64,000 nt of DNA from an uncultured Williamsia sp. GTDB lineage: Bacteria > Actinomycetota > Actinomycetes > Mycobacteriales > Mycobacteriaceae. Positions 17,406 through 45,507 of this stretch are shown piece by piece. The notes beneath the pieces were generated by a model. The model was not told the DNA's origin. It saw nothing but the letters and a program-made list of their open reading frames with translations, and did not search any database. Numbering within the stretch: position 1 is the first letter of the stretch; every line of letters begins with the position of its first letter. The position numbers and the translations under genes were made by a program. The stretch is from assembly GCF_947494875.1 (NCBI RefSeq), contig NZ_CANLWM010000001.1, positions 806,001 through 870,000 of the forward strand, in the 5' to 3' direction.

Positions 17406-17424
17406 ATTGGTTAGGCTTACCTTT
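17406..17424. promoter_or_regulatory. IdeR iron box between formyltransferase and mbtH
   Basis: ATTGGTTAGGCTTACCTTT agrees with the 19-base IdeR consensus in the core (GGTTAGGCT-ACCT). It lies 36 bases before the formyltransferase start on one strand and 75 before mbtH on the other, so one box probably controls both divergent transcripts. Both genes have normal Shine-Dalgarno sites here, unlike the other boxes in the window. Confidence 0.75.
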
Positions 17425-17499
17425 GATACCATCGCCTCGGTTCGAGGTACAACCGCGCCCCTCCCCGGGGTGCGGTCCGCGACACGAGAGGCAAAACCC

Positions 17500-21261: not shown

Positions 21262-24200
21262 ATGCAGATCGCGGATGTGCTCGCCCGTCTCGACGAGTGG
21301 AACGACCGGTCGCAGCCGACGGCGCGGTCGACGGTCCCGGACCTGCTCCGTCACCAGATCGCGGCCTCCCCCGACGCGGTCGCGGTGGTCGACGACACCC
21401 ACATCCTGACCTACGCGGAACTGGGTGTGCGGGTGGAGGATCTCGCGGCAGACCTGCGTGCGGCGGGCGTCGGCGCCGAGGACGTCGTCGCGATCGGCAT
21501 GCGCCGCAGCGCCGAGATGGTGGTCGCCGTGCTCGCCACCATGCTGTCCGGCGGTGCGTTCGTCCCCATCGATCCGAGCTGGCCACAGCAGCGTCGGGAA
21601 CGCACCGCGACCGACGCCCGCATCGTCCACGCTCTGGTCGGTCGGGACGACACCGGCAGCTGGCAGGTGCCGACGACGACGCTCGACCTCGCGCACTGGA
21701 CGATCCGCGAGCGGTCCGTGGAGGAGCCCGCGACCCTCGACGGCGCCCGCCTCGCCTACATCGTGTTCACGTCGGGATCCACCGGCACCCCGAAGGGGTC
21801 GATGATCCGGCACGAGGCGATCTGCGAACGGCTCCGGTGGCAGCGGGACGAGATCCTGCACTTCGGGTCCGACGACGCGTCGTTGTTCAAGGCTCCCTTG
21901 GCCTTCGACATCGCGATCAACGAGATCCTGCTGCCGCTCGTGTCCGGTGGGCGGGTCGTGGTGGCGCGTCCGGAGGGGGAGCGCGACCCCGAGTACCTGC
22001 TCGACACGATCGCGCGCCACGGCGTCACGTTCGTGTACCTGGTGTCGTCGATGCTCGACGCGCTGCTCGAACTCGACGGGCCCGCCGGTGGGTCGTCGTC
22101 GCTTCGGGATCTGCGCCATGTCTGGTGCGGCGGTGAGGTGCTCACCCCCGACCTGTTCCGTCGCTTCCGCGCCCATCTCGACACGACGCTCTTCCACGGC
22201 TACGGGCCGGCGGAGGCGACGATCGGTGTGTCCCATGTGATCTACCGCGACGTCGCCGAGCGGATCGCGACGTCCATCGGTTCGCCCAACCCCCACACGC
22301 AGCTCTACGTCCTCGACGAGGATCTCCGTCCGGTCGGTCCCGGTGTGGGTGGCGAGCTGTACGCCGCAGGATTCCTGCTCGGGCGGGGATACGTGGGCGC
22401 CCCGGGACTCACCGCGTCCCGGTTCGTCGCGAACCCGTTCGACAGCAACGGGTCCCGCATGTACCGCACGGGTGACCTCGCGCGCTGGACCGAGGACGGT
22501 GCCCTCGAGTTCCTCGGACGGGCCGACAACCAGGTCAAGATCCGCGGCCGCCGGATCGAACTGGAGGAGATCGAGTCGGTCGTCGCCGACCACCCGCGGG
22601 TGCGCTCCGCGGCGGTGATCGTGCGGGACTCCACCCTCGTCGCCTTCGTGACGACGACCGGCCTCGGCCTCGTGGACGGCGCCGAAGACATCTCCGCGTG
22701 GGCAGTCGACCGCCTCCTGGACTACATGGTGCCCGGCGAGATCCACCTGCTCGACGCGATGCCGACCACCACGAACGGCAAGGTCGACCGCGCGGCGTTG
22801 ACCGCACGCGCCCTCGAATCGGCCGCACGGCGGACCACGCCGGTCGTCGCACCGACGACGGCGCGGGAGGCGGTCCTGTGCCGCGTGTTCGCCGACGTGC
22901 TGAACCGGTCCGAGATCGGTGTCGACGACGACTTCTTCGCCGCCGGTGGTGACAGCATCGTCGCGATCCGTGTGGTCGGCCGGCTGCGTGCGCAGGGTCA
23001 CGCGCTGCGCCCCCGCGAGATGTTCGCCCACCGCACACCCCGGGCGCTGGCCCCGATGCTGGTCGAGCTCGACGTGACCTCCGATCGGGAGGTCGTGCCG
23101 CAGGAGGGGCCCGTGGGGCCCACCCCCATCACCGCCTGGCTCGACGAGATCGCAGGCGACGCCGACGTCCTGTCGGGCTTCGCCCAGGGGATCGTGCTCA
23201 CCACCCCGGAGGGGTTGACCGAGTCCGACCTCCGCGGCGTCGTGACGGCGGTCGTCGAGCGGCACGGGATGCTGCGTGCGTCGACGGATGGGCACGCCGC
23301 GGCGACGGTGGTGCCGGAGTCCGGCGGTGTGGGTCCGATGGTGGTCGTGGGTGCGACGTCCGGCGACCGCGACGCCGACGTGCGTGCGGCGTGGGAGCTC
23401 GCGCGGACGCAGCTCGATCCGGCCACCGGACACATGCTCGTCGTCGTCTGGCTGCGGGACCACGGGCTGCTCGTCGTCGTCGGGCACCACGTCGTCGTCG
23501 ACGGCATCGCGCTGCGGGTGATCGCGGAGGATCTCGCCGCCGCGCACGCATCGCTCCTCGCGCACGGCTCGGCCGTCGTGGGGGAGGTCCCTGTCTCCTT
23601 CCGTGACTGGGCCGCCCGTCTGCGGACCGCCGCCGACGACGGGGTGTTCGCGTCGGAGACGGCGCACTGGGAAGCGGTCGTCCGAGGGGTGGAGGAACCA
23701 CTCGGCGACCGTCCACTCGACCCGGCGGTCGACACCGTCGCCACCGAACGACGACTCGTCGTCGAGCTGGACACGACCGACACCGAACGGCTCCTCTCGG
23801 TCGTCCCGGAGGCGATCCACGGACGCGCCGACGACGCGATGATCGCCGCGCTGGCGCTGGCGGTGCTCCGCTGGCGTACCGAGCGCGGGATCGCCGGGGA
23901 CGACGAGCTCTTGCTCGAACTCGAGGGGCACGGCCGGGAGGCCGACGCCGTCGACCCCGACGGGCTGTCGGGACCGACCGACCTCTCGCGGACCGTCGGA
24001 TGGTTCACCACGCTGTTCCCCGCGCGGATCACCGTGGACCCGACCGCCGGGATGGGCGCCGTGGTCCGCGCGGTGAAAGAGCAACTGCGCCGGACGCCCT
24101 CGCACGGTGTGGGATACGGCGTGCTGCGACACCTCGCCGGCGCCGACATCGCCTGCTCCCCGCAGGTACTGTTCAACTACCTCGGTCGATTCTCGCTCGA

Positions 24201-27200
24201 CGCACCCGACCGAGCGCCGTGGTCTTTCGTGTCCGTCGACGCCTCCGCGGTGTGGGAGGACCGGGCCGCGACCATGCCGCTGCCCCGGCTGATCGAGGTC
24301 AACGCCGAGGCGATCGACCGTGCCGACGGATCCCGACTGCGCGCCGTGATCAGTTGGCCCGCAGGCGCGATCGACGCGGCCGCGGTCGAGCGGCTCGCCG
24401 AGCTGTGGATGCAGGCTCTCCGGTCGATCGCCGCCGACCCCACGGTCACCGGCCACACGCCGTCGGACTTCCCGCTGGTCTCTCTCACCGACGACGACAT
24501 CCGTGACATCGAGACGCGCTTCCCGGCGGTGCAGACGGTTCTGCCGTTGACCCCGGTGCAGCAGGGGATCTGGTTCCAGTCGACGTACGAGGCCGATCAC
24601 GACCCGTACGTGGTGCAGCAGATCGTCGACGTCCACGGCGATCTCGACCGGCACCGGTTCGCCACCGCTGTCGACGGCGTCGTACGTCGACACCAGGCGT
24701 TGTCGACGGCCGTCGTCGCGACCTCGGACGGCACGCCGGTCGCCGTGATCGCGCCCGTCGCGCCGACCGACGTCCTCTGGATCGACGGCGACGCCGACAC
24801 GGATGTCGACGTCGTGGCCGCCGCGGAGAGGAACCGCGGCTTCGCCCTCGACGAGGCGCCACTCATGCGGTTCGCGATGATCTCGCACGCCCCCGATCGA
24901 CACACGATGGTGCAGACGGTCCACCACATCGTGGCCGACGGGTGGTCCGTGCCGATCGTCCTCGACGACATCGTCTCCGCCTACCGGGACGGGGCCACGG
25001 GTGTGTCCCCGGCGCGCATCGACCGCCATCTGGAATGGCTGGGCCGTCGGGACGCCCCCGCCGACCGCGCGGCGTGGGCGCAGTACCTCGACGGTCTGGA
25101 GGCGCCCACGCGCATCGCCGCTGTCGATGGGCACGGCGGCGAGCCGAACCCGGACGGCGAGCGTCACGGCCGTCGCACGGCGCGGTTCGACGGGGACGTC
25201 GCCGCGACGGCGCGGTCGGTCGGTGTCACGCCGAGTGCGATCGTCACGGCCGCCTGGGCGATCGTCCTCGGACGCCTCACCGGCACCGCCGACGTCACGT
25301 TCGCGTCGGCGGTGTCCGGTCGTGGCGGCGACCTCGCCGGCGTCGACGACATCGTCGGCATGCTGGTGAGCACGGTGATCACCCGTGTCCGGGTCGATCC
25401 CGGGACGTCCGTCGCGGACACTGCGCGTGATCACGCCGCCGCCGAGCTCACCGTGATCGACCACCAGCACATCCCTCTCGCCGACTTGGCCGAGGTCATC
25501 GGTGCACGGGGCGATCTCGTCGACTCCCTGCTGGTGATCGAGAACCTCTCCGGTCATCGGTACGAGGAGACCGACTGCGGGGCAACGGCCTCGGAGGGCA
25601 TCGGCTTCGGTGAGGTGCGGGTCGTCGAGGCCCCGCACTACCCGCTCACCGTGATGGTGTCGGTGCACTCCGACATCCGGGTCACCGTCACCAACGACCG
25701 CACCGTCGTGTCCGACGGTCTGGCGGACCACGTCGCGTCCGCCGTGGTGGCGGCGTTGGCGGCCACCGTCGTCGACCCGGGCACCACCGTGGCCGGGATC
25801 CGGGCCCTCCCCGCCGGCGCAACCGCGCCCGTCGACGCCGTCGACGCGCCCCTGTTGCCGTCGGCACTCGCCGATGCGGCGGTCGCGCATCCCGACACGG
25901 TCGCCCTCACCCAGGGTGACCTGCGATGGACCCACACCGATCTCGCCCTGCGCGTCGGCGCGATCGCGGCGGCGCTGCGGGCCGCGGGTGCCGGTCGCGG
26001 GTCGGTCGTCGCGGTGATGCTCCCGCGCACGCCGGACGCGGTCGCCGCTGTGTGCGCCGTGACCGCCGTCGGCGCCGCGATCATGCCGGTCGACATCACC
26101 TACCCGGCCGACCGCATCCGTCTCATGGTGGACACCGTCGAGCCGCGGGTGATCCTGACGGACACCGCTGTCTCGGTGCCGGAATCGGCCGCGACCGTTG
26201 TCGATGTCGCCTCCGTGGACCGCGAGGCGGCGACCGTGCCGCCGCCGGTCGCGCTGTCGCGCGAGGACGCGGCACTCGTCGTCTTCACGTCCGGATCGAC
26301 CGGGACGCCGCGGGCCGTGGTGCTGCCCCACGGCGCCCTCGCCGACCGGCTGGACTGGGGTCGTCGCCGCTGGGCGGCCTCGACGTGGCTGGCGAAGAGC
26401 TCGTGGGCGTTCATCGACGGCGCCACCGAACTGCTGACCCCGCTCACCTCCGGCGCGACCGTGGTCCTCGCGGACGACCACGCGCGTCGCGACGGAGCCG
26501 ATCTCGCCCACCTGGTCGAGGAGAGCGCGGCGGAGCAACTCGTCGCCGTCGGGTCGTTGGCACGTGTGATGGCAGCGGAATTCGGTGACCGCCTCGCCTC
26601 TCTCCGGCGGTGGGTCCTGAGCGGTGAGGCACTGGAGCCGTCCATCGTCGAGGCGGTTCGCGCGGGCACACCGTCCGCGGTGATCATCAACTCGTACGGT
26701 TCGTCCGAGGTGGCCGGCGACGTGCTGGTGACCGAGGTCGTCGACGCCGACGACATCACGCTGGGCACCCCGGTGCCGGGCAGCGACGTGGTCGTACTCG
26801 ACCATCTCCTGTCCGAGGCACCTCGTGGGGTCATCGGCGACATCGTCGTCGGCGGTGGGCAACTCGCCCGTGGCTATCACGGGGACCCGGCCGCGACGGC
26901 GACCCGCTTCGTGGCCGACCCGCGACCGGGCGCGGTCCCCGGCGCGCGGCTGTACCGCACCGGCGACCGCGGGTGGGTCGACGAGGGCGGACGCGTGGTC
27001 TTCACCGGCCGCGACGACGACCAGATCTCGATCCGGGGGTTCCGCGTCGAACCCCGTGAGGTGGAGGCGGCGCTGTGCCGCATCCACGGTGTGCGTGACG
27101 CGGTCGTCCTCGCGACACCGATGCTCGAGGCGGTGGTCGTCGGCGACCCGCACCTCGATCCGTCAGATGTCCGCGCGGCTGTCGCGCAGACACTCCCGAC

Positions 27201-30200
27201 CCACGCCGTGCCGTCGGCTGTGGCGGTGACCGACTCGATCCCCCTGCTGCCGAACGGCAAACGAGATCGCGCCGCGCTGCTGTCGCTGCTCGCCGCGGCC
27301 CGTGACGCCCGCACGAGCGAGACGTTCGTCGCCCCCTCGACCGATGCCGAGCGCGACGTCGCCGAGGCGGTCGCCGACGTCCTCGGCGTTCCGCCCGTCT
27401 CGGCCACTGCGGAGTTCCTCGACCTCGGCGGCGACAGCATCGTGGCGGTACGGGTGATCGGCCACCTCACGCGACGGGGGTGGGCGGCGACCGGAGAAGA
27501 CGTCTTCCGGGGGCGGACCGTCGCCGGGATCGCTGCCCGCCTCACCCGGGCGGAGTGGACGTCGGACGGGGACGTCGCACCGTTCTCGACCGTCACCCTG
27601 TCCGATGCCGACCGCCAACGGTCGACGGCCGCTGTGCCGTTCGCCGTCGACGACATGTGGGCGCTGACGCCGCTACAGCGCGGTGTCTACACCGAGTGTG
27701 TGGCGGCCGGGCCGGATGACACGACGTACCTGACGCAGAACGTCTTCACCCTCGACCGCCGGGTCGATGTCGACGCCCTGCGGTCGGCGTTGTCCGACAT
27801 GGTCGCGGCACTCCCGCAGCTCCGCGTCTCGTTTTATCCCACCCGATCCGACGATCCCGCCGCGACCCCTGTCGTCTCCGTCGTCGCGAGGTCTGTCCAG
27901 GTCGATGTCGACGAGCATGACCTCACGGGCCACGACTCCACCGGTGCCGCCGCCGAACTCCGTGCCGTCGTGGAGGCCGACCGCGTCCGTCCGTTCGCGC
28001 TCGACGTCCCCCCGCTGATCCGCGCCGCGGTCGTGGCCCTACCCGACGGCACGGACCGCCTGCTGTTGACCTACCACTTCCTTCTCTTCGACGGGTGGTC
28101 GCGGGAACTGGTCCTGCGGGACCTGTTCTCCCGATACGAGTTCCACCAAGGGGGCACACCCGCCCCCACCTCGGACGCGCTCGCGCCCTTCCCGCGGTAT
28201 CTGCGGTGGCTGCAGCAGAGGGACGACGACAGCGCTCGCACCGCCTGGCGCGGACTGCTCGGATCGATGGAGGAGCCGACCCTCGCCGCGCACGACCCCG
28301 GTCCGGACGGCGACCCCCGCCAGCTCTTCGCGACGCTCGACGGCGACCTGTCCGGTGCGGTCGCCGCCACGGCGCGCGACCTCGGTGTGACCGAGAACGC
28401 CGTCATGACCGCCGCACTGGCCGTCGTGACCGGGCTGCACGCCGGGACGTCCGACGTGGTCATCGGCGTGACGGTCGCGGGACGCCCGGGTGACGTCGCC
28501 GACGTCGAGAACACGGTCGGACCGTTCCTCACCACGGTTCCCGCGCGACTCGACGTGCGTCCGGGCCGCGCCGTCGCGGACGTGATCGTCGACGCCGCCG
28601 AGCAGCGCATCGCGATGATGGCCCACGACCACATCGGACTCGCCGAGATCACCCGGGCGGCCGCGGGTGATGCCGGAGCGACGCTGTTCGACTCGCTCTT
28701 CGTGCTGCAGAACTTCCTCGACGACGACACCTTCACCGATCTCGAGTCGCGGCACGGCATCGTCGACGTCGACTACCGCGACACCACCGCTTTCCCGATC
28801 ACGTGGGTCCTCACCCCCGGGGCGCGGATCGCCGTGAAGCTCGAGTACCGGCCGGGGTCGGTCGCCGACGCCACGGCATCGCTCATGGTGCGCGGGTTGG
28901 AGCTCGCGCTGACACAGATGACCGCCGACAGCGGGCAGGCGGTCGGAACGGTGCGACTGCTGGACGACGAGGCCTCACCGGCGCCTCGCGACATCGAGTC
29001 GGTCACGATCGCCGAGATGCTGAGCGACCGTGCGGCGCTCGTCCCCGACGTCACCGCGCTGGTCGCCGGTGACGAGCGGCTCGACTACCGCGAACTGGAC
29101 GCCCGCGTCACGCGGATGGCGCGGATGCTGCTCGCGCACGGTGCCGGGCCCGAGGTGGTCGTCGCCCTCGACCTACCGCGCACCACGGACATGGTCATCG
29201 CGTTGTTCGCGGTCCTGCGGACCGGCGCAGCCTATCTCCCGATCGAGCGCGACCACCCTGTCGCGCGTCTGCTCACGATCGTCGACGACGCGGCGCCGCG
29301 CATCATCGTCACCGACTCCGCGCAGCGCCCGATCGTCGTCGCGGCCGGTGAGTCCGGCTGTCACGTCGTCGATCTCGGCGATGACGCCGTGGTGCGGTCG
29401 TTGGCACAGCTCGACGACTCCCCGATCCGGGACTCCGAACTCGGGACGTTCGCCGCCGGGCGGGACCGTCTCGACCATCCCGCCTACCTGATCTACACGT
29501 CCGGATCCACAGGGACACCGAAGGGCGTGGTGACGCCGTACATCGGCCTCACCAACATGTACGCCAACCACGACGAGGCCATCTTCACGCCGACCATCGC
29601 CCGCTCGGACCGCGATGTCCTCGCGGTCGCGCACACGGTGTCGTTCTCGTTCGACATGTCGTGGGAGGAGCTGTTCTGGCTGGTCGCGGGGCACACCGTG
29701 CACGTCTGCGACGAGGAGCTGCGCCGCGACGCCCCCGCGTTGGTGCGCTACTGCACGGACAACCTGGTCGACGTGATCAACGTGACCCCCACCTACGCCC
29801 ACCACCTCATCGAGGAGGGGTTGCTGGACGGGGACCACGTACCCGCACTGGTGCTCCTCGGTGGTGAAGCGGTCACGGACGTGGTCTGGGATGCGCTGCG
29901 CAACACCGACGGTGTGGTCGGGTACAACCTGTACGGCCCGACCGAGTACACGATCAACACCCTGGGCGCGGGAACGGACGAGAGTGACACCCCGACCGTG
30001 GGGCGTCCCATCCACAACACCGCGGCCCGCGTTCTCGACACCGCGTTGCGCGCTGTCCCCGACGGTGTCTTCGGCGAGCTGTACATCGCCGGCGCCGGTC
30101 TGGCACGCGGGTACCACGGTCGGCCCGACCTCACCGCGGCGGCGATGGTGGCGGATCCCCTCGGATCCGGCGGCCGGATGTACCGAACCGGTGACCTCGT

Positions 30201-33200
30201 CCGACGTCGGCCGGACGGCATCATCGACTACCTCGGCCGCGCCGACGACCAGATCAAGATCCGCGGGTACCGGGTCGAACTCGGAGAGATCGAGTCGGTG
30301 ATCGCGGCACTCGACGGGGTCCGTCGCTGCGCCGTCGTCGCCCGCGCCGACGCGGACGTCCCCGGCCGGAAGACGGTGGTCGCCTACGTCGTCCCCACGT
30401 CGTCGCCCGCGCCGGGCGGGCGCGCCGACGTCATCACGGGGATCCGGGACGCGGTGGCGGCGACGCTGCCGTCGTACATGGTGCCGGCGCGGTACGGGAT
30501 CGTCGACGACCTACCGCTCACCGTGAACGGCAAACTCGACGTCGCCGCGCTGCCGGAGCCCGTCGCCCCTGTCCGGGGTGATCTCCGCGCGCCGCGCAGC
30601 GAGGCCGAACGCGTCATCGCCGAGGTCGTCGCGCAGGTGCTCGGCACCGGCGCGGTGGGCCTCGACGACGACTTCTTCGCCCTCGGGGGCGACAGCATCT
30701 CGTCCATCACGCTGGCCAGTCGGGCCGCGGCTCGGGGTGTGCGCGTCACGCCCCGGGACGTCTTCCGTCGCCGCACCGTGCTGGCCATCGCTGCCGCGTC
30801 GGTGTCCGTCGACGCTGTGGAGCCGGTGGACGACCCGGGCACCGGAACCATCCCGGCGACACCGATGCTCGCCGAGACCGTCCGCGCTCGAACGGTTCTC
30901 GACTCCTTCTATCAGTCGATGGTGCTGCGGACACCGATCGGGATGGGCCATGACGACCTCGTCGCGGTGCTCGGTGCGCTGCGAGATCGTCACCCGCTGC
31001 TGCGCGCGCGCGTCGTCGGTGACGACGACTGGACCCTCGTCGTCGACGAGGTCTCGGAGCCGTCCGGACCCGTCGACATACGAACGGTGGACGAGGACTT
31101 CGGCGGCGGGCGACTCGACGTCACGGTCGCCGAGCGCGCAGCCTCGCTCGACTGTCGCGGTGGGCGCATGCTGACCGCGGCGTGGTACCCGTCGACCGAC
31201 ACCGAAGCAGGACAACTGCTGCTCGTCGTCCATCACGTCGTGGTCGACGGCGTCTCGTGGCGCATCATCATCGAACACCTCGCCCGTGCCTGGGAAGCGC
31301 TGCGCCGCAGGGGTGGCGCGGAGCTGGAGGCGATTGGTACCTCCTTTCGCCGCTGGGCGGAACTCCTGACCGACGCCCTGCGGCCGGAGGTCGTGGCCGA
31401 TCACGTGGAGGCGTGGCAGCGGGTGCTCGCCCCGGTCGCCCCGTTCGGCGACAGGCCGGTGGACCCGGCGCGGGACACGATCGCGACGACGCGGACGGTC
31501 CGGGTCACCCTGGACAGCGCTGACACGGCCGACCTCGTCGGACGTGTGCCCGCCGCCGTCAACGGCACTGTCGACGACCTCCTGCTGGCTGGTCTGTCCC
31601 TGGCGGTGCGGGCGTGGCGCACGCAGCGAACCGGTGACACCGACGGCCGCCTCCTGGTCAACCTCGAGGGGCACGGGCGACGCCCGGAGGTGCTGGGTGA
31701 CGCCGGCGCGGGTGTCGATCTCGCCGAGACGATCGGCTGGTTCACCGCGATCCACCCCGTCGCGGTGGATGCGGGTGACGTCGACTGGCCGGCAGTGGTC
31801 GACGCCGACCCGGTACTCGACCGTGCCGTGAAGTCGGTGAAGGAGCAGATCCGCTCGACCCCGGGCACCGACAGGGTCGCCGGCGGTCTGGGCTACGGCA
31901 TGCTTCGGCATGTCCACCGGCACCCGGCTCTGCAGGGCCGGGCCCCGGAGGTCCTCATGAACTACCTCGGACGGCTCGACGGTGCGACCGGTGGCGACTG
32001 GGCGCCGGTCGAGGGGATCGGCGCTCTGCGTGAGGGTGTCGACCCATTCAATCCTGCTGCGGCGCTCGAGATCACGGCCCAGATCGGGACGGACGGACGG
32101 CTCGTCGTCGACCTCATGTGGCCCGCTGGGATCCTGGATGACGGCGAGACGGCCATGGCCGATCTCGGCGAGCGGTGGATGACCGCGCTGCGGGCGTTCG
32201 TCCGTGCCCCCGTCGGGGGAGCGACGCCCTCGGACTTCCCGCTGGTGTCGCTCACGGACGGCGACCTCGCCGCCCTCACCAGCGACCTCGGCGCACCGGT
32301 GGCCGTGCTCCCGATGCTCCCGCTGCAGGCGGGCATGTACGCGCACTCGATGCTGCTGGCCGACGGGGACACGGTCACCGCACCGGGCGACCCTTACGTC
32401 GTGCAACAGACCGCGAACCTCGTCGGTGCAGTGGACGTCGCCCGTCTCCGTCGTGCTCTCACCGCGGTGGTTGCGCGCCACGACGCGTTGCGTACCCGGT
32501 TCGTCGCGACGGAGCAGGGTGCCGTCGTGCAGGTGGTCGACCCGGCGGGCACCGTCGACCTCGACCATCACGACCTGCGCGGGACCGTCGACCACGCCCC
32601 CGATGTCGCGGACAGGATCGCGGCGGAGGAGCTCCGTCGGCCGCTGGACCTCGCCGGACGGCCGCCCGTGCGGTTCACCCTGGTGTCCCTGAGCGACACC
32701 GAACACCGACTCGTGCAGACGATGCACCACGCGCTCGCGGACGGGTGGTCGTACCCGCTCGTCTTCGCCGACCTCGTCGAGGCCCACCGCCTCGACACGT
32801 CGTTGCCGCGGCCCGCCGTCGGCTGGTCCGATCACGTCGAGACCGTCGCGGCCGGCGATCCGGACAGCGCCCGCGACACATGGCGCACGGTCCTCACCGA
32901 CGTCCTCGGCTCACAGCCCGCGCCGACCCTGCTGGCACCCGTTCTGCCCCGCGCGGCCGACGGGGAGACCGGCTTCCGGACCGTCTCCACGACGGCGCCG
33001 TCGGCCGCGTTGACCGCTGCGGCGCGTAGTCGTGGCGTCACCCTCGGCGCGGTGGTCCATGCGGCGTGGGCCGTCGTGCTCGGACGGCTCACCGGGCAGG
33101 ACGCCGTCGTGTTCGGGTCGACCGTGTCCGGACGTGCGGGGACGACGATCGACGTCACCGGTGTCGTCGGTCTGCTGATCAACACCAACCCGCTGCCCGT

Positions 33201-36200
33201 GGCGGTGCGAGCGGCGACGCGGCTCGGCGACGTGGTCCGCGCGGTCGCCGGCACCCAGACCGAGGTCATGGATGTCCAGCAGATCGGTCTGGCCGACATC
33301 GGCCGGATCGTCGGCCAGGCCACACTGTTCGACTCCATGGTGGTCGTCGAGAACTTCCCGGACGTGGACCCTGCGGGAGTCGGCGACAGTCCGGACACGC
33401 TGTCGATCACGGGCTTCACCGGTGTCGACACCCCGCACTACCCGGTGTCGTTGGTCGTGTTCCCCGGCGAGTCGACGACGTACGAGATCAAGTACGACGC
33501 CGCCCTGGTGTCGGAGACCACGGCGCGGTCGCTCGCCGACGCGGTCACCGTGGTCGTCGACGACTGGATCACGGTGCCGGACAGGCGACTCGCCGACGTA
33601 TCGCTCACCCGGGACGAGCACTCGGTGGTCGGCGGCCGCGCATCGCGCGCCCCGTCGACGGTGGTCGACGCGTTCCTGTCGGCGGTGGGCGCCGTCCCCG
33701 ACGCCGTCGCCCTCACCGACGGCACGCAGTCACTGACCTACCGCGACCTCGACCGTCGCAGTGCGACCTTCGCGTCCGCGTTGCGATCGGCAGGGGCACG
33801 TCCGGGCGGCCGCGTCGCCGTCGCCCTGCCACGCGGTGTCGACCTCGTGGTCGCCGTGCTGGCCGTCGCCCGCAGCGGCGCGACCGCCGTCCCCCTCGAC
33901 ATCGAGGCGCCCGCGGACCGCCTGCGGTACATCGTCACCGATGCCGCACCCGACGTCCTGGTTGTCACCGAGGCCACCCGGTCGAGGGTCCCGGTTCCCG
34001 GGGGTGTGGCGGTGCATGTCGCGGGGACAGGGGAGTCCTCAGGCACGTCGGATACCGACGGCCTGCCGGAACCGGTGCGCCCACTGCCGGCCTCTCCCGC
34101 GTACCTCATCTACACCTCGGGGTCGACCGGCAGACCGAAGGCGGTCGAGATGGCGCACGCATCGGTGACGGCGATGTTCGCGTCCGCGGCTGAGCACGTC
34201 GACCTCGACGATCAGGTGTGGACCCTGTTCCACAGCATCGCGTTCGACTTCTCCGTGTGGGAGGTCTGGGGTGCGCTCGCGCACCGCGGGCGGCTCGTCG
34301 TGGTGGACGGCGACGACCGCCGTGACCCGGAGCGACTGGCTGCACTGATCCGCGAGCAGGGCGTCACGTTGCTGAGCCAGACGCCATCCGCGTTCCACGC
34401 CCTGGCCGGGACCGTCGATGTGGCAACGCTTCCCGTCCGGACCGTCGTCTTCGGCGGCGAGGCACTCGACGCACGTCGACTGCCGGATCTCCCCGGGGTC
34501 CGACTGGTCAACATGTACGGCATCACCGAGACGTGTGTGCACGTCACGGCGCATCGCATCACCGACGACCAGACGGGCCCGGCGGCCACCGGCGGCGTCG
34601 GTGTGATCGGCCGACCGCTCGCGGGTCTGGGCGTCGCTCTTCTCGACCGTTTCCTGCGACCCGTCCCCGCCGGTGTGATCGGTGAGATGTACGTCGCGGG
34701 AGATCAACTGGCGATCGGATACTCGGGCCGACCCGACCTGACCGCCATGCGCTTCGTCGCGGCCCAGTCGGGGGAGCGGATGTACCGCAGCGGCGACCTC
34801 GCGTACCGCGATGCCGGCGACCTCGTGTACGTGGGCCGGTCCGATCAGCAGGTCTCGGTGCGTGGACACCGGGTCGAACTCGGCGAGGTCGACCACGCGG
34901 TGTGTTCGGTCGACGGTGTCGTCGATGCCGCGGCGGCCGTGGGCCCGGACACGACAGGTCGCGACGTGCTCGTCGCCGCTGTCGTCACGGACGGCGCGAT
35001 GACCGACGACGAGATCCGCGATGCAGCAGGGCGTCTCGTCCCCGGGTACATGGTCCCGGCCCGGTACGCGCGGGTGGAGTCGATCCCGCTCACGGGCAAC
35101 GGGAAGGTCGACCGCGCGGCAGTGCTGGCGTCGGTCTTCGACACCACCGCCGAGCCGTCGACCCCGGACAGTCCGCCGGCCGGGGCCGACCCGGTGTCCC
35201 GGCTGGTCTCCGTCGTGTCCGAACTGCTGGGACGCAGCGACGTCGGTCCCGACGACGACTTCTTCTCGCTCGGCGGGGACAGCATCGTCGCCATCTCCCT
35301 GGTCAACCGGGCGAAGACGTTCGGGCTGACCATCACTCCGAAGGACGTCTTCCGTCTGCGCACCGCCCGTGCGCTCGCGGCGACGCAGGATGCGGGGGTT
35401 GTCGGGGCCCCCGCGGATCGCGTGGTCGACGTGACAGGGGAGTCGGATCCGGGGGAGGTCCTCCTCACCCCGATCGTCCATCGGCTGTCCGAGCTCGGTG
35501 GCGACATCCGTCGGTTCTGTCAGGCGGTGGTGGTGCAGACCCCGGCCGGGGCGGACGCCGAGCGGGTGCGGGCGTGCGTCGCCGGCCTGGTCCGCCGTCA
35601 CGACGCGTTGCGTCAGCGGCTCCACCGGCCGAACGCCTTCCTGTGGTCACTCGAGGTGGTGCGACCGGACGGCGTCGACGAGACGGTCGCGACGCTGCCG
35701 TGGACGGTCGAATCGATCCGGGGCGCAACCGATGCCGAGCGAGAGGCGGCGGTGGCGCAGGTGTCGGACACGGCTGCCGACGGGCTGGACCCCGACGCCG
35801 GTGTCATGGTGTCCGCGGCGTTCCTCGACGCCGGGGACCGGCCGGGACGTCTCGTGCTCGCCGTCCACCACCTCGCGGTCGACGCCGTGACGTGGCGGAT
35901 CCTGCTCGACGACCTCGTCGACGCCTGGACGGGTGTGACACCACCGCCCGCGACGACGTCGCTGCGTCGGTACGCGTCGACGCTCACCGAACAGTCGGCG
36001 AGTCCCGCGCGTCTCGCCGAGTTCGACCATTGGTCGGCGCAGGTCGCGCCCGGTGCGGAACTCGTCCCGGGCGCCGCGACGGTGGCGCTGACGCTCGGCG
36101 ACACCGTCGAGCACGAGATCGTCCTCGACGCCTCCACGACAGAGCATTTCCTGACCACGGCCACGGCCGCCTCCGATGTCGATGTCACCGAGTTGCTGGT

Positions 36201-39200
36201 CGCCTCTGTCGCCCTCGCCGCCTCGCGGGTCCGCGGCTCCGGCGACCTGTCGATCGACGTCGAGCGCCACGGACGGGACCTCGACGGCGCCGATCTCAGC
36301 AGGACCGCGGGATGGTGCACGTCCATCGCCCCGGTGCGTCTGCCGGGTGCAGCGCTCGCGGCCGGCGACACCTCCTCGGTTCGCGACATCGCCCACGCCC
36401 TGCGAGCGGTGCCCGGCGACGGCCTCGGCTATGGGTTGCTGCGCTATTGCAACCCGCGCACCGCGGGGGTACTCGCGCGCGGATCGGCCCCGCAGGTGGT
36501 GGTGAACTACCTCGGACGCGGGCACGCGGACATCGATCGTGACTGGGCGCCGACCGACGAGACCGTGCGCGCCGAGCCGGATCCCGGACTCGGCACGCCC
36601 TACCTGCTCGAGGTCAACGCCTGGTGCCGATCGCATGCGGAGGGCACCCGGCTCCACATCGCGATCCGCGTCCCGCGTCCGGGCATCGTCCGGGGCGGCG
36701 ACGTCGACGACCTGGTCGGGGGCTTCGACGACGCCTTGGTGGCGGTGATCGACGACATCGGCCTCGCGGCGACACGCACACGGCGGACGCAGGCGGAGCT
36801 GTCGGGGTCCGATCTCGAGGCGCTCGTGGCGACCCACGGCGACGACCTCGTCGACGTGTGGGACCTGTCGCCCCTGCAACAGGGACTGTGGTTCCAGGCG
36901 ACGGCGAACAGCGCCGACGTCTACGTCGCCGCGAACGCGTTCGATCTCGACCGGCGGCTCGACGCCTCGGCGCTGGGCGCCGCGATGGGCGACGTGATGG
37001 ACGTGCACCCGGCGATGCGTGTCGGGGTGATGACGGTGCCGTCCGCCGACCGCCAGGTCGCGGTGGTCGTCGACCGGGCCGTGCCGGTGACCGAGATCGA
37101 CCTGACGGACGTCGGGGCGGACGCACCCGAGGCGCGTCTGCGGGCACTCGGCGACGCCGACCGCACGACGCCCTTCGATCTCGGCCGCCCGCCCCTCATC
37201 CGGCTCACCTTGGTCCACCTCCCCGGCGGACGCGACCGGTTGCTGTTCACCTACCACCTGCTGCTGTGGGACGGGTGGTCGCGAGAACTGGTGCTGACGG
37301 CCCTGTTCGACGCCTACACCCGCCGAACCGGTGGCGCTGCACCCGAGATCGCCCGGCCCACGGCGACCGTGCCCGACCACCTGCGGTGGCTTGCCGCCCA
37401 GGACACCGCCGCGTCGGAGTCGGTGTGGCACGGGCTGTTCGTGGATCTCGAGGAACCGTCGCTGCTGTTCCCCGAGGCGGCCGGGACCGACCCGGCCCTC
37501 GCGCGACGCGTCGACGTCGAACTCACCGAGGACGAGACCACCGCGCTGACCCGGTGTGCGCGTGCGGTCGGCGTCACGCTGCACGCCCTGGTCAGCACGG
37601 CGCTGGCCGTGGTGCTGGGACGTCGCCTCGGTCGCGACGACGTCGTCCTCGGGACCACCGTCGCAGGACGCCCGACCGACATCGACGGCATCGACGAGGT
37701 CGTCGGGGTCTTCCTCAACACCGTGCCGCTGCGGGTGCGGCTGGCCCCCGGGTCCACCGCCGCCGAGGTCATGCGGGCCGTCGCCGACGACCGCGTCACC
37801 ACCATGGACCACGAGTACCTCGGACTCGGTGACATCCAACGAGCTGTCGGGCGGGGCCCGCTGTTCGACAGCCTCTACGTCCTGCAGAACTTCCTCGACG
37901 ACGACACCTTCGCCGATCTCGAGGCGCACCAGGGGATCACGGCGGTCGACGCCGTCGACGCGACCCACTACCCCCTCACCTGGGTCGTCATGCCGGGGCG
38001 CCGTCTGTGGTGCAAGCTCGAATACCGGCCCGACGTCGTCGACGCCGAGGCCGCGCGTGCCCTGCTCGCCGATCTGCACGCCACCCTGCTGGCGATCGCG
38101 GCCGCACCCCGACGTCCGTTGGCCGCGTCCGCGGGTGCGGCGGTGGTCCCGTCGAGCATCGCCGGCGACCGACTCGACGTCGGTGACGACACGATCGCGG
38201 ACCTGCTGTTCGCGCAGGCTCGCCGTACACCGGACCGCCCTGCGCTCACCTGTGGTGGGGACACCATCACCTATGCGGAGCTGTCGCAACGGATCTCAGC
38301 TGCCGCCGCCCAACTCGTCGCGGCCGGGGCCGGCCCCGAACGCATCGTCGGCCTGGCGGTGCCACGGTCGACCGAGATGGTCGTGGCGCTGTTCGCGGTG
38401 CTGGCGACCGGAGCGGCGTACCTCCCGTTGGACCTGGCCGTGCCCGACGACCGCATCGCCGACATCGTCGCCGACGCCGAGCCGACGCTGGTCGTCGTCG
38501 ACGACACCTCTCGGGACCGGATCGCGCCCATGGGCGTGCCTCTCGTGACCCTCGGGTCCGACGTACGCGATGTGTCCGTCCGACCGACGCGGTCGCTCGA
38601 CCATCCGGCGTACGTCATCTACACGTCCGGCTCGACCGGTCGGCCCAAGGGCGTGGTGACGCCGTACCGCGGCCTGACGAACATGCAGATCAACCACCGC
38701 CGCGCCATCTTCGACCCGGTGGTGGCCCGCCTGCGTGCGCAGCATGGCCCGGACGCGACGCTGACCGTGGCGCACACGGTGTCGTTCGCATTCGACATGA
38801 GCTGGGAGGAACTCCTCTGGCTCGTCGAGGGACATCACGTCCACGTCTGCGACGAGGACCTGCGCCGCGACGCAGCCGAACTCGTCCGCTACTGCTCCGA
38901 CCACGCGGTCGACGTGATCAACGTGACGCCCACGTACGCGACGCACCTCGTCGATGAGGGGTTGCTGCGCGGATCGCACGTCCCGCGGTTGGTGCTGCTC
39001 GGCGGCGAGGCGGTGACGGATCGTCTCTGGGAGGAGTTCCGCGCGACGCCGGATCTGCTGGCCTACAACCTGTACGGCCCCACCGAGTACACGATCAACA
39101 CCCTCGGTGTCGGGACGGACGACACCGACCGCGCAGCGGTCGGACTGCCGATCACCAACACCGAATGTCTCGTCCTCGACGCCTGGTTGCGTCCGGTGCC

Positions 39201-42200
39201 GCAGGGGATCGCGGGCGAGTTGTACATCCGGGGAGTCGGACTCGCCCGGGGTTACCACCGTCGGGCGGACCTCACGGCGTCGTCGTTCGTCGCCGACGTC
39301 GACGGCTCCGGTGGTCGCCTCTACCGCACCGGTGACCTGGTGCGTCAGCGACCCGACGGTGTCCTCGACTACCTCGGTCGCACCGATGACCAGGTCAAGA
39401 TCCGTGGGCATCGCGTCGAGCCGGCCGAGGTCACCGCCGCACTGCTCGACGTGCCCGGTGTCCGTGGGGGCGCGGTGGTCGCCATCGACGGTGAGACGGC
39501 GGACCAGGGCAAGAGACTGGCGGCGTTCGTGATCCCGACGGATGACCCGAGCAGCGGATTCCTCGCGGGGATCCGATCCTCACTCGTCGACCGCCTGCCG
39601 GGCTACCTCGTGCCGTCCGTCTACGCCGTCGTCGACATGCTGCCGCTGACCGTCAACGGCAAGCTCGACGTCCGCGCCCTCCCGGAACCGCGGCCTGTGT
39701 CGGGATCCTGGCGGGCGGCGGCGTCGGAGACCGAGCGCTGGATGTGCGAGGTGTTCGCGACCGCACTGGGTTCCGACGATCCGGTCGGCCCCGAGGACGA
39801 CTTCTTCGCGCTGGGTGGTCACTCACTTCTCGCGACGCGTCTGCTGGGACTCGTCGCGGAACGATGCGGCGCGCGGTTGCGGCTGCGCGAGCTCTTCGAC
39901 GCACCGACACCGGAGCGGTTGTCGCGCAAAGTGTCCGCGCTCGGTGTCGACTCGGGCAGCGTCGACGTCGAGGCGGGTTCGACCGCACTCGCCCATCGGC
40001 CGGACGTGGAGGAGCACCTGCTCTCCCCGGCGCAGCGTCAGCTGTGGCTGAGTTGGCAACTCGACCCGTCGGACACCGCCTACCTGTATCCGATCGCGGT
40101 GCGGGTGGAGCGCCGACTCGACCCCGACGCACTGCGTCGGGCCGTTGTCGCGGTGTTGACCCGCCATGCGCCGCTGCGCAGTGTCGTCACCGACCGCGAC
40201 GGGACGCCTGTGGTCGTCCCACTCGACCCGGTCGATGCCGCGGCACGCGTCGAGGTAAGGACGGTCGAGTCGGAGGACGTGACGCCAGTCGTCGACGCAG
40301 AACTCTCGCGACCGTTCGACCTCACCCGCGACCTCCCGCTGCGGGTGACCCAGATCGACTGCGGCGCTGGGTCCGTCCTGCTGCTCACGATGCACCACAT
40401 CGTGGTCGACGAGTGGTCGGACGCGGTACTGCTCGGTGACCTCGACCGTGCCTACCGCGGGGAGGAACTCGGGTCACTGCCACTCACCTACGGAGACTGG
40501 GCGGACTGGGCTACCCGGGACCTCGCGACGTCCGTGGGCGACGGCACCCGTGCCGACGCGCAGATCGCCTGGTGGCGCGACCATTTCGCAGGCGTTCCCG
40601 ACGAGGTCACCATTCCTCCCGATCTGGTCCGACCCGTCGGTGACACCCGACCCGCGGCGACGGTCTCCACCCGTCTCGACGCACCCGCGGCCGATGCGCT
40701 GCGCGCACTGGCGACCGAGCGGTCGGCGACCACCGGGATGGTCCTGCACGCTGCGCTCGCCGTGGTGCTGCGCGGGTTCGGCGCCGGCGACGACATCGTC
40801 GTCGGCACACCGCGTTCGGGCCGCACCGACGATCGACTGAAAGACGTCGTGGGGTATTTCGCCTCCACCCTGGTGACCCGGGTCGATCTCGCGGACCGGC
40901 CGGCGATCGGGGTGCTCGTCGACCGCGTGCGTGACATCGACCTCGCCGCACACGACCACGCCGAGATCCCGTTCGCGGAGGTCGTGGCCGCTGTCAACCC
41001 CGGTCGTGTCGTCGGCCGGACACCGCTCTTCTCGCTGATGCTCGGGTACTTCCGGTCCGATCGGGGCGGCGACCCGGGGGACACATTGTTCGGTGCCGCG
41101 GTGTCGGACGTCGACGCCGGGCCGCGTGAGGCCAAGGTCGACGTGAACGTCACCTGCGTCGACCACGGTCCCGCAGAGCCCGTCGATGTGGTCGTCGAGT
41201 ACGACGCCGGCCGCTACTCGCCATCGCTGATGGAATCGCTGGCGTCGGCGATCGCACGGGTCGCCACGGCGATGCCGGCTGCCCCGGACGCGTCGATCGC
41301 GGCACTGCACATCGCGGCGCCGCCCGTGGTGCAGACCCCTCGTGTGGTGGTGTCGTGTCGGTGGGTGGACGAGATGGAGGCCGTCGCCGCCGAGCATCCC
41401 GACACCGTCGCGGTGACCGTCGGCGACGACGCCGTCACCTATGGCGACCTTGCCGTGCGGGTCCGCGAACTGACCGCCCGGCTCACAGGTCTGGGCGTCG
41501 CGCCGGGTGACGTCGTCGCCGTCGCGGCCCGGCGCGGTGTCGAACTGGTCGTCGCCCTGGCGGCCGTGAACCGTGTGGGCGCGGCCTATCTGCCGCTCGA
41601 CACCGCGGTCCCCGCAGAGCGACTGGCCTACATCGTCGACGACGCGCAGCCGGCCGTGGTGCTCGCCGACGCGGAGGTGGACTGGTCGTCGGCGCCGGTC
41701 CGGCTTCTCGGGGAACAGGAGTGGTCGCCGCTGGTGCGCCCGGACGACCGGGCGCGTCAGGATGTCGGCCCGGCGGCCTATCTGATCTACACCTCGGGAT
41801 CGACCGGCAGGCCCAAGGGCGTGGTGGTCTCCCATCGGGCACTCGACGCGTTCCGTATTGGCGTCGCCCGTCGGTTCCCGATCCGTGCCGACGACCGTGT
41901 GCTCGCGACCACGACGGTGTCGTTCGACATCGCCGTCCTGGAGATCCTGGTCCCGCTGTCCGTCGGCGCGACGGTCGTGATGGCCCGCCGCGACGAGGTC
42001 GTCGATCCCGAACTGCTCGCCGGGGTCATCGGCCGGGGACGGGTCACCGTCGCGCAGGCGACGCCGTCGCTGTGGTCGACGGTCACCCGTTTCCGCGACC
42101 GGGACGGCCGCGGCGTCGACCTCAGCCGGATCCGGGTGGCGGTGGGTGGCGAGGCGCTGCCCACCGACCTGGCCGGCGAGCTCGCGGGGCGTGCGGCGCA

Positions 42201-43875
42201 GGTGGTGAACATGTACGGGCCCACCGAGGCGACCGTGTGGGCGACATCCGCGGAGATCGGCACCGGTACAGGGGAACCGACGATCGGTGCCGCGTGGGAC
42301 ACCGTCACCGCGGTCGTGCTCGACGACGACCTCCGGCCCGTTCCCGACGGTGTCGTCGGCGAGCTCTACCTTGGCGGTCCGCACCTCGCCGACGGATATC
42401 ACCGCCGCCCGGACCTGACAGCCGCGCGGTTCGTCGCCCATCCGCTCGCCGGCCCCGGCGGGCGGCTGTACCGGACGGGTGACGTGGTGCGTCGGCGGGC
42501 AGGCGGGTCCCTCGACTACCGCGGTCGCTCCGATCACCAGGTGAAGATCCGCGGGCACCGCGTCGAGCCCGACGAGGTCGCGGCCGCGGTGCGGCGACTC
42601 GACGGCGTCGACGATGCGGTCGTGGTCTCGCGCATGGTGGACGGTTCGGTTCGCCTCGACGCCTACGTGGTCGGCGCGGACGTCGACACCACCGCCGCGC
42701 GCCGGGATCTCGGTGGGGTTCTCCCCTCCTACATGGTCCCGTCCGCGGTCACCGTCCTCGATGCGCTCCCGCTCACCCCCAACGGCAAGACCGACCGCGC
42801 CGCGCTGCCCGAACCCCAGAGTGCCGGCGACACCGCCACCCCGAGCACGCTGACGGGGACGCGACGCGAGGTCGCAGAGGCGATCGCCCGCGTCCTGGGG
42901 GTCGAACCCACCTCGCCGACCGACGATTTCTTCGCGCTCGGCGGCCACTCGCTGCTGCTGGTGCGGCTGCACGAGCAACTGAGGGACGTCCTCGGCGCCG
43001 ACGTCGGGGTCCGTGTCCTGCTCGCGGCACCGGCGGTCGGGGACATCGCGGACGCCGTCGACGCGGCCCGACAGGGTCTGTCCGTCGCGACGGCGGACGC
43101 CCTCTCGCCGGTGGTGCGGTGGAACACCGCGGGGACGGCGACGCCCGTCGTGTGTTTGCCGCCGGCGAGCGGGATGTGCTGGGAGTACGCGGGGTTGGCG
43201 CGGTTGCTGGGGTCCGGGACGCCGGTCGTCGGACTGCAGTCGAGGAGTCTCACCGACCCGGCCGCGCTGGGTGCGGACTTCGTCGACGTGGTGTCGGAGA
43301 CGGTCGACCGCCTCGACGAGTCCGTGGGGGACGGTCCGGTCGTCGTCGTGGGGTGGTCTTTCGGCGGCGTCCTCGCCCCGGCGGTGGTCGCCGAATGCCT
43401 GCGGCGTGGACGCGTCGTGGACCGGGTCGTCATGCTCGACGCGCACGCGCCGGGGGCCCCGGTTCCGACGACGGTCGCCGCCGATCCTCTGTCCGTGCTT
43501 CTCCGTGAGCTCGGAGTGTCACTGCCCGAGCATGATCGGGCTGTGACGGACACCGCGCTGACGATGGACGAGGCGGTGCGGTTGCTCGCCGACCACGACG
43601 ACGTGCTCCGGTCGCTGGGTTCGGACGCGGTCGTCGCGGTGATCCGTACCTACCTCGACAGCGACCGGCTGATCGCACAGGCGAACCTGCCGGTGGTCGA
43701 GGACGTTCCGGTCGACTTCCTCGAGGCCGGGTCGGTGGAGCCGGGGTTCGACGGGAACAGCGCGCGGGGATGGCGCGGGGTCCTGCCCCGGATGCGGGTC
43801 ACGGTCGTGCCGGAGGGGCATTCGCAGATGCTGACCGGCGCCGCACTCGACCGCTTGGCGGATCTGGTGCGGTGA
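21262..43875 (+). CDS. Six-module siderophore NRPS, exochelin type (FxbB and FxbC functions in one 7,537-residue chain)
   Basis: Domain order: A1-T1-E1-C2-A2-T2-C3-A3-T3-E3-C4-A4-T4-E4-C5-A5-T5-C6-A6-T6-TE. T-domain serines: 565, 2059, 3145, 4674, 6188, 7230; TE nucleophile in GWSFGG at about 7366. Hand-read 10-residue codes: A1 DINYWGGIGK (formyl-hydroxyOrn, as in coelichelin CchH), A2 IDTVVSSGDK (beta-Ala-like, Ile1718 for Asp235), A3 and A5 DMENLGLINK (hydroxyOrn), A4 DFWSVGMVHK (Thr-like), A6 DILQAGMVWK (Gly-like). C2, C4 and C6 have HHxxxD at 1221, 3822 and 6378; C3 (HFLLFDG, 2272) and C5 (HLLLWDG, 5332) lack the second His. E domains follow modules 1, 3 and 4. Predicted chain: D-fhOrn, beta-Ala, D-hOrn, D-Thr, L-hOrn, Gly. 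No loading C domain. Confidence 0.95.
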
Positions 43876-43939: not shown

Positions 43940-44956
43940 TCAGGCCATCGCGAGATCGGCCACGGGCCGGCCCGACAGCGCGTTGGACAGCTGCGGGACG
44001 AGGACGTCGAGGGCGTACATCAGGGCGTTCGGTCCGCTGTAGGCCAGTGCGCCCGACAGGGGTGAGTCGAACGTGGTGTAGAGCGTCCGGTCGTCGCGCA
44101 CCACGGTGAGGCGGCTGAACGCGGGCGAGGCCAGCATCTGCTGCTTGGTCGCGCCGTTAACGAAGAGGATGTCCCGGTCGAGCAGGGCGAGCTTCTCCTC
44201 GGAGAGGTCACCGACAGTGTCCTGTGCACGGAAACCCAACGCGTCGAACAGCGTTCGACGGGGGTCGTTGGCTCCGATGAGGTAGTGGCCGCCGTTCTCG
44301 GGACCGAAGTCCTCCACGAGGGTCTTGCCGGCGAACTCCGGGTGCGCCGCCTTCGCGGCGTCGATCTTTCCGCGGACCTGCGTCACCAACGACTGAGCCT
44401 GGTCACGCTTGCCCAGTGCCTGTCCGGTCAGCAGGAGCTGTGCGTCCCAGGGGGTCTCCTCGTCCTTGTACCGGCCGGGCTGGACCACGGTCGGAGCGAT
44501 CTGCGAGAGACGGTCGTAGGTCTTGCGGTCGACCGTGTCGTAGATGTCGAGGATGAGGTCGGGCTTCGCGGCCGCGATTGCTTCGAAGTCGGCGCTGTCG
44601 CCCTGCATGGACGCCACGCCCTTGCCGTCGGTGGCCTCCTTGACCCACGGCATGGTGTTGTAGGAGTCGTACCAGGCGCGGGTGGTCACCGGGACCACGC
44701 CGAGCGCCAGGACGAAGTCCTGATCGTTGTAGCCGACGGTCACAACCCTTTTCGGGTCGGCGGGGACCTTCGTGCTGCCGAACTTGTGGTCGACGGTGAC
44801 GGTCGGTCCCGACGACGAGCTGCCGGAGTCCGACCCGCAGGCGGCCACGAGACCGATCCCGAGGGCGGCGACCGCGGCGACGACCGCGAGGCGCAGCAGG
44901 CGGGTCGAACGGGGGCGGCGCGTCGCCGCCCGAGGTGAGGACGATGGGTGTGACAT
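43940..44956 (-). CDS. Ferric-siderophore-binding lipoprotein (FecB/FepB-type; FxuD-like by context)
   Basis: 338 residues. A Tat/Sec-like start with Arg-rich n-region (ATRRPRSTRLLR), hydrophobic core and lipobox LVAACGS put the acylated Cys at about residue 40. The mature part is a class III (helical-backbone) binding protein: FGSTKVPADPKRVVTVGYNDQDFVLALGVVPV at its start, IAAAKPDLILDIYDTVD, and a late LFVNGA/TLYTTFDSPLSGAL. It should capture the ferric exochelin-type siderophore and deliver it to the FecCD/FecE transporter encoded at 5.5-8.4 kb. An iron box ends 6 bases before its ATG and no Shine-Dalgarno is visible. Confidence 0.92.
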   Translation of the reverse strand: MSHPSSSPRAATRRPRSTRLLRLAVVAAVAALGIGLVAACGSDSGSSSSGPTVTVDHKFGSTKVPADPKRVVTVGYNDQDFVLALGVVPVTTRAWYDSYNTMPWVKEATDGKGVASMQGDSADFEAIAAAKPDLILDIYDTVDRKTYDRLSQIAPTVVQPGRYKDEETPWDAQLLLTGQALGKRDQAQSLVTQVRGKIDAAKAAHPEFAGKTLVEDFGPENGGHYLIGANDPRRTLFDALGFRAQDTVGDLSEEKLALLDRDILFVNGATKQQMLASPAFSRLTVVRDDRTLYTTFDSPLSGALAYSGPNALMYALDVLVPQLSNALSGRPVADLAMA

Positions 44957-45060: not shown

Positions 45061-45507
45061 ATGCGCCGAACCATGTTGGGCGGCAAGATACATCGGGCAA
45101 CGGTGACACAGGCCGACCTGCACTACGTCGGGTCGATCACCGTAGACACGGACCTGATGGTGGCCGCCGACATCGTCGACGGCGAGCAGGTGCAGGTCGT
45201 CGACATCACCAACGGCGCCCGCCTCACCACCTACGTGATCCCCGGCCCCGCAGGGTCCGGTGTCATCGGGATCAACGGTGCCGCAGCTCATCTCGTCGAG
45301 CCCGGTGACCTGGTCATCATCATGTCCTTCCGGACTGTCGACGACTCCGAGCTCTCCGATCACGAAGCCCACGTCGTGCACGTCGATGCGCACAACGCGA
45401 TCGTGGCGCTCGGCAACGACCCGGCCGAACCCGTCCCCGGCGCGGATGATCAGTGGCGGTCCGACGTGGACGAGGTGCAGGTGGCCGGACGGGTCGGCGT
45501 CCGATGA
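45061..45507 (+). CDS. panD: Aspartate 1-decarboxylase (beta-alanine supply for NRPS module 2)
   Basis: 148 residues, close to mycobacterial PanD throughout ([20 protein letters not shown]). The self-processing site is Gly24-Ser25 in [10 protein letters not shown], where cleavage makes the pyruvoyl cofactor. Lys9, His11, Tyr22 and the conserved [21 protein letters not shown] are in place, so an active enzyme converting L-aspartate to beta-alanine is expected. It is not next to panB or panC but overlaps the hydroxyornithine monooxygenase gene (ATGA) in an iron-regulated unit, and NRPS module 2 has a beta-Ala-like code. A dedicated siderophore role is therefore likely. GAGGG precedes the ATG by 6 bases. 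Confidence 0.93.

Follow-up and report, generated by a model that had tools for sequence, protein, structure and literature searches.

How might a nonribosomal peptide synthetase (NRPS) join residues through the side-chain hydroxylamine of hydroxyornithine (hOrn) when the condensation (C) domain in question lacks the second His of its active-site motif HHxxxDG? This question is raised by an exochelin-like NRPS of six modules and 7537 aa (21262..43875, forward strand), which is encoded in the window, by which we mean the whole 64,000-nucleotide stretch of an uncultured Williamsia sp. analyzed here (positions 806,001 to 870,000 of contig NZ_CANLWM010000001.1). Two of its C domains, C3 and C5, lack that residue, and we consider it probable that they represent a specialized subtype in which the hOrn on the T domain is acylated at its N5-hydroxylamine nitrogen without the usual base.

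The synthetase has the organization A1-T-E, C2-A2-T, C3-A3-T-E, C4-A4-T-E, C5-A5-T and C6-A6-T-TE (A, adenylation; T, carrier; E, epimerization; TE, thioesterase, the last a Pfam match at 43144..43512), all on the forward strand. C3 (27649..28983) precedes hOrn module 3 and reads HFLLFDG (28075..28095), with Phe in place of the second His; C5 (36850..38148) precedes hOrn module 5 and reads HLLLWDG (37255..37275), with Leu at this position. The A domains behind them, A3 (29062..30600) and A5 (38180..39650; the ends of both are approximate), share the specificity code DMENLGLIN, which within this NRPS is confined to these two. The canonical controls are C2 (HHIVADG, 24922..24942), which precedes A2, and C4 (HHALADG, 32725..32745), which precedes A4; C6 (HHIVVDE, 40393..40413) likewise retains the second His. 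The remaining codes are DINYWGGIG (A1), IDTVVSSGD (A2), DFWSVGMVH (A4) and DILQAGMVW (A6), and we take the substrates to be formyl-hOrn (fhOrn) for A1, a beta-Ala-like residue for A2, hOrn for A3 and A5, Thr for A4 and a Gly-like residue for A6. An earlier note on this DNA had claimed that C3 and C5 lack the second His kept by C2, C4 and C6, and that they alone stand ahead of hOrn modules; both claims hold, with motifs and coordinates as given here. As a separate observation, the HHIVVDE motif of C6 stands before the Gly-like A6, and HHxxxDE has been associated with acceptors of small size, Gly among them (PMC8097023).

Judged by sequence, the loss does not stem from misalignment of otherwise canonical domains. 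PF00668 matches cover most of C3 and C5 with 176 and 195 bits, respectively (cut-off 30.6), and with the LCL/DCL C domains of this family they have in common the place in the module and the Asp-Gly-Trp-Ser of the motif; the closest solved sequence relatives of C3 are the C domains of microcystin synthetase B, bacitracin synthase 3 and PvdL. In phmmer comparisons to such solved domains, HFLLFDGWS of C3 pairs with HHIILDGWS (microcystin synthetase B) and HHILLDGWS (bacitracin synthase 3). When the C domains of the window are aligned together with 28 from other loci, the spacing before the motif in C3 and C5 equals that of C2 and C4, with indels in the hairpin preceding the motif in C6 and a few other rows. 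The register is thus kept in both alignments, such that C3 has Phe, and C5 Leu, where the second His would stand. A pseudogene or frame error is excluded by the 7537-aa open frame and the conservation of the motif among relatives. C3 and C5 depart from the canonical LCL/DCL domains, in which the second His is retained: members of the subtype have Leu, Phe or Val instead, those of some lines are missing the first His as well, and only an hOrn code is found directly behind. Cy domains, too, are devoid of HHxxxDG, but they carry DxxxxD (e.g. DFDALILD; compare loci L308 and L312), which is absent from C3 and C5, and these precede hOrn.

The tie between His loss and the acceptor module is found well beyond the window. 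A first look with C3 as the query in 150 genomes of the order gave 30 loci, the window's own domains being two of them; among the 25 with a readable A code, the second His is missing in 17/17 C domains before DMENLGLIN (including RFLLWDG of locus L006, QFLVWDG of L007 and RFLVWDG of L013) and kept in 8/8 before other codes. A search anchored instead on the A domain covered 296 class genomes together with 297 from genus g2 (presumably Mycobacterium; 25 of the 297 positive), with the matches to A3 in the class genomes read mainly at ~54% identity or above. Among the non-identical C domains of the fetched loci, 75/81 before hOrn lack the second His as against 0/118 before other codes, and 8/49 lack it where no A domain could be read behind. 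These counts exclude a chance association, although the Fisher p = 3e-48 overstates the case as the rows are related. All loci together, including those found by the motif itself, give 522 non-identical C domains whose following A code could be read, once 78 identical domains, 94 lacking a legible code and 19 in which the motif did not align are set aside; the second His is missing in 194 of the 207 before DMxNxGLIN and in three of the 315 others. These three are two Cy domains and one odd VTHRITGD, and none of them has the motif of the class. Members of the class ahead of an A code other than hOrn number 0 among 245 C domains. In these alignments MAFFT mostly put W, not E, at code position 3, and hOrn was called from positions 1, 2, 4 and 6-8. 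The coelichelin-type synthetases (fhOrn-E, C-Thr-E, C-hOrn), whose loci were obtained partly via the motif, repeat the pattern within single assembly lines: the C domain of the hOrn module is His-less in 80/80 loci and that of the Thr module retains HH in 79/79. The first His is also gone in members reading QVLLWDG, QFLVWDG, RFLLWDG, ELILLDG and WFGCFDG. A DMxNxGLIN module was not found in 18 regions around weaker A3 matches (44-51% identity), in two genus-g4 regions fetched beside them, or at three proteobacterial plasmid matches (Rhizobium, Erwinia and Azospirillum), the sole Proteobacteria read.

The association can also be approached from the motif. A reciprocal scan with a DNA pattern for His or Gln, three hydrophobic residues, any residue and DGW returned 11 matches in 10 of 346 genomes of the phylum, five of them outside C domains and six within, all six standing before hOrn. 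Of 296 genomes of the class, 38 gave matches, 42 in all (32 within C domains, seven outside and three left out of examination); the A code behind is hOrn for 30 of the 32, and of the remaining two one has its A code cut off (G370:C368) and the other (G339) was judged by 67% identity to A3. Since only His or Gln is allowed in first place, this pattern misses the RFLLWDG, ELILLDG and WFGCFDG types. The loss of the motif residue, its tie to hOrn modules and its absence before the other codes read are direct observations.

The C domains ahead of DMENLGLIN-like A domains were collected and placed in trees built without the motif columns, a check that the earlier note had proposed, and most of the His-less ones fall into one main clade. 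This clade receives SH-aLRT support of 99 in two trees (32 rows in the first and 18 in the second) and includes both C3 and C5. Since C3 follows a module without an E domain and C5 one with it, the clade tracks the acceptor and not the donor configuration. In a third tree the His-less core has a support of 80, and a wider fork with 98 adds heterobactin-like HH domains and long-branch WFGCFDG rows; in all three trees HH rows fall outside this core. Fuscachelin-like HH domains adjoin the main clade in the first and second trees, not in the third, and their placement is unsure. A second group with ELILLDG or QVALLDG, from Embleya (L166) and family f31, lies apart from the main clade in the second tree. 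In 200 genomes of f31, all 11 matches at >=76% identity (including G369) read ELILLDG before hOrn, and nine of the 23 matches at 42-50% were read as eight HH and one EHILMDG, none of them before hOrn. When all His-less hOrn domains are forced into one clade, the approximately unbiased (AU) test does not reject the single clade when two second-group members are sampled (p-AU 0.109) and rejects it once eight members and their relatives are included (p-AU 0.0085). On these trees we favor two independent losses of the second His, without regarding them as proven.

Some further variants surround these groups. C domains with EHILLDG, EHILMDG or EHLVLDG (L264, L297, L299-L302), in which the first His is replaced by Glu and the second kept, stand before DAWDSGLIN or DAWDFGLIN; these domains are the closest kin of the ELILLDG lineage in the third tree. 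A third His-less motif, WFGCFDG, occurs at 8 loci of genus g4. Loci L303-L305 combine a Cy-like C domain (DMDMIAGDAVS), a C[WFGCFDG]-A(hOrn) protein and a C-A-C-A protein, with a dihydroxybenzoate (DHB)-type A domain (PLPAQGVLN) in two of the three, a gene set that possibly specifies a mixed oxazoline-hydroxamate siderophore.

What might render the His dispensable at these modules? In the mechanism we propose, the upstream acyl thioester would be the acyl donor, and the inter-residue bond would itself be the iron-binding hydroxamate. Hydroxylamines, with a pKa near 6, are alpha-effect nucleophiles, at once weaker bases and better nucleophiles. The hydroxylamine of hOrn would already be neutral and strongly nucleophilic, and the N-hydroxy zwitterionic intermediate would readily lose its proton, to water or to its own oxygen, so that the domain would only have to bring the long side chain up to the thioester. 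The His would then be superfluous for base catalysis, and even unwelcome in that it would hold the alpha-amine as the nucleophile; the hydrophobic residue found in its stead, along with the W, F, L or M ahead of DG, may let the longer side chain reach the thioester. The N5 bond, activity without the His and the reason for its loss are inferred, the regiochemistry at these loci from the product structures of known siderophores. What the central His does is itself a matter of debate, with computed N-C bond formation before deprotonation and water able to act as the base (PMC8097023); elsewhere the His is given a positioning role (PMC10587159) or 'seems to be essential' (PMC1894796). The widest form of the proposal is that the class arose at least twice, that the general-base His (in several lines both His) was dropped owing to the hydroxylamine nucleophile, and that His versus Leu, Phe or Val would act as a switch between N-alpha and N5 linkage; on this we are evenly poised between acceptance and doubt.

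The domains that keep HH bear on this proposal in different ways. As 13 of the 207 hOrn-acceptor C domains do so (eight heterobactin-like, three fuscachelin-like and two in second hOrn modules), hOrn as such is not the cause of the loss. The eight heterobactin-like domains (HHLLTDA and similar) stand before DMxNMGLIN, and in heterobactin the cyclic hOrn is reportedly attached via its alpha nitrogen. A domains with the code DAWEGGxVD, often the last in the protein, follow a C domain that keeps the second His in 14/14 cases, and the code may, by analogy, denote a terminal hOrn lactam residue: the layout of L308, Cy-A, C-A-E, C-A-E, is that of the kasichelin NRPS, the product of which terminates in a hydroxyornithine lactam (PMC12305651). 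For D...GAVN codes, which to judge from erythrochelin-like layouts probably specify acyl-hOrn, the preceding C domain likewise retains the second His in 26/26 cases, as expected if N5 is already blocked. Separately, the terminal C domain of eight erythrochelin-like synthetases (L061, L062, L064, L067, L072, L074, L213 and L221) reads HYxxxDEWS, with Tyr for the second His, and HH is retained in L219, which has an erythrochelin-like layout; this is a separate His loss in a terminal and possibly releasing C domain. The distinct class put forward in the earlier note is borne out as a His-less class tied to hOrn acceptors across Actinomycetes, but not as a trait of every C domain before DMxNxGLIN; to its idea of a dispensable second His we add that the first His can be dispensed with too and that the fuscachelin-like HH domains suggest the loss is not obligatory.

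Several points weigh against C3 and C5 being N5-acylating domains of this kind, or limit the evidence for it. First, the fuscachelin-like C domains before hOrn keep HH (HHIVMDG; three genomes, L054-L056, also read as L068, L078 and L079). Fuscachelin contains a 10-membered Ser-hOrn depsipeptide ring, implying an N5 bond, so that hydroxamates can probably be formed without His loss; as its assembly is non-linear, the bond made by its HH C domain is uncertain. Second, L162 and L166 use DMENLGLIN twice each, behind one His-less and one HH C domain. Third, P390 and R401 (C3 numbering), found in 32/32 main-clade domains versus 25% and 14% of 51 others, are also present in fuscachelin- and heterobactin-like C domains. 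Being common to these HH domains they do not explain the His loss, and their distribution makes it more likely that they belong to hOrn recognition. Fourth, products (coelichelin, erythrochelin, exochelin, heterobactin, kasichelin and fuscachelin) were linked to loci by domain order alone; the heterobactin-like layout (Orn-like-E, Gly, hOrn) was read in L080 only, the other seven loci being assigned by C motif and A code alone. Fifth, the AU test with thinner sampling did not reject a single origin, and the rows of the second AU tree were picked after the result of the first. Finally, a relatives scan used the motif as one of its two patterns, and the best 80 of its 585 relatives, nearly all coelichelin-type Streptomyces, enter the 0/245 and 522-domain counts, though not the A-anchored one; since the motif served as the search pattern, these loci are not independent.

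Four other explanations were weighed, with likelihoods that overlap with that of the N5-acylating subtype and do not sum to one. The one that survives best, though we think it unlikely, is that the His-less C domains are catalytically dead and only bring the carrier proteins together, with hOrn attacking the thioester unaided or another domain making the bond. Hydroxylamines are good nucleophiles, and both His are gone in QVLLWDG, ELILLDG and WFGCFDG members; moreover, the lost residue is the one described as seemingly essential in the source quoted above (PMC1894796). Against a dead scaffold, the rest of the domain is conserved: besides P390 and R401, the D and G of the motif and the following WS are invariant in the same 32 rows (not so in the WFGCFDGGSS members). 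Further, besides the formyltransferase described below, no acyltransferase was found among the 21 open reading frames of the window tested.

Somewhat less likely still is that the motif marks only a lineage, the His having been lost by drift once or twice in a C-A unit that travels with DMENLGLIN, with the regiochemistry unaffected. Adjacent C and A domains could well be co-inherited, most members form one lineage in all three trees, and a single origin survives the thinner-sampled AU test; one clade is nonetheless rejected once relatives of the second lineage are added. In addition, the His-less core is free of HH rows, the adjoining heterobactin-like HH domains would differ from it in their bond, and the loss is not seen with other A codes among the 245 domains.

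The proposal of a displaced His, in which a one-residue bulge (xHLLLWDG taken as HH-x4-DG) would bring the remaining His into the catalytic place, is highly improbable: members with SHHLILWDG and THHLVLWDG do have two adjacent His one position upstream, but the bulge is contradicted by members such as NRQVLLWDG, SRRFLLWDG, TSELILLDG and TYWFGCFDG, which have no His in the stretch at all, and the spacing ahead of the motif is that of HH domains. That the donor (beta-Ala, D-Thr or Ser) or its D-configuration sets the motif instead of the acceptor is hardly credible, for even though 103 of the 194 His-less domains before hOrn follow Thr with E and 21 a beta-Ala-like residue (the donor being unread for 65), it is disfavored by the mixture of donors (Thr with E, beta-Ala-like without E, Ser with and without E) and by HH being kept after fhOrn, Ser, Thr and Gly-like modules before non-hOrn A domains of the same assembly lines.

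Among known systems, the third C domain of coelichelin CchH (its loci recognized by domain order) has the motif family HLLLWDG, acceptor code and clade of the window's domains; it differs in its setting, being in the third of three modules and after D-Thr, as opposed to two such domains in six modules. The published CchH module order agrees with that of the coelichelin-type loci (PMC9854754). The exochelin-type lines of genus g2, FxbB/FxbC-like by layout, match the window in the order fhOrn, beta-Ala-like, hOrn, Thr, hOrn and in the places of the E domains, and many have a C3 motif, TYHFLLFDG, identical to that of the window. Their C5 motif is mostly HFLLLDG, in place of HLLLWDG, and their last module, where read (L193, L194, L198 and L200), has DTWDTGLVD in place of the Gly-like A6; the terminal residue of exochelin-like lines seems, from these codes, to vary. 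Thus, the window NRPS follows the exochelin-type order fhOrn(E)-betaAla-hOrn(E)-Thr(E)-hOrn and exceeds its five residues by the sixth, Gly-like module with the TE. Fuscachelin- and heterobactin-type C domains share the hOrn acceptor with C3 and C5 and lie near the His-less clade in the first tree; both differ in keeping HH.

The genes around the NRPS are in keeping with such a product. A lysine/ornithine N-monooxygenase family protein (45453..46832, forward; PF13434 match at 45558-46586) is probably the supplier of hOrn, and a formyltransferase (16542..17369, reverse, within the frame 16425-19277; Formyl_trans_N/C matches) probably formylates hOrn for module 1. An ABC exporter (18911..21241, forward; ABC_membrane and ABC_tran) lies immediately upstream of the NRPS, and a periplasmic binding protein of iron-siderophore type (43940..44956, reverse; Peripla_BP_2, with every NCBIfam match under its cut-off) lies downstream of it. 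Together, these four fit an exochelin-type formyl-hOrn hydroxamate siderophore with one additional residue. Two giant NRPS frames, 11371 and 12590 aa long, occur elsewhere in the genome (contig 2, ~454766-548301), which has 49 PF00668 matches in total.

Finally, these domains constitute a real and general condensation-domain variant that extends well beyond C3 and C5. No earlier report of His-less hydroxamate-forming C domains was found in searches of the open-licence PMC literature, some of them aimed at product structures, and His-less hOrn-acceptor C domains are apparently undescribed. The tie of the His loss to hOrn modules is strong, and the causal and regiochemical claim is a hypothesis. 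A natural class that lacks the second His mostly at hydroxylamine nucleophiles would offer a ready experiment on the role of that His. It could also provide a rule for genome mining, whereby it could be read from the sequence whether hOrn is joined via its side chain or its alpha-amine, a choice that fixes the iron-binding geometry of the siderophore. If this is true, siderophore connectivity would be predictable from sequence and perhaps reprogrammable.

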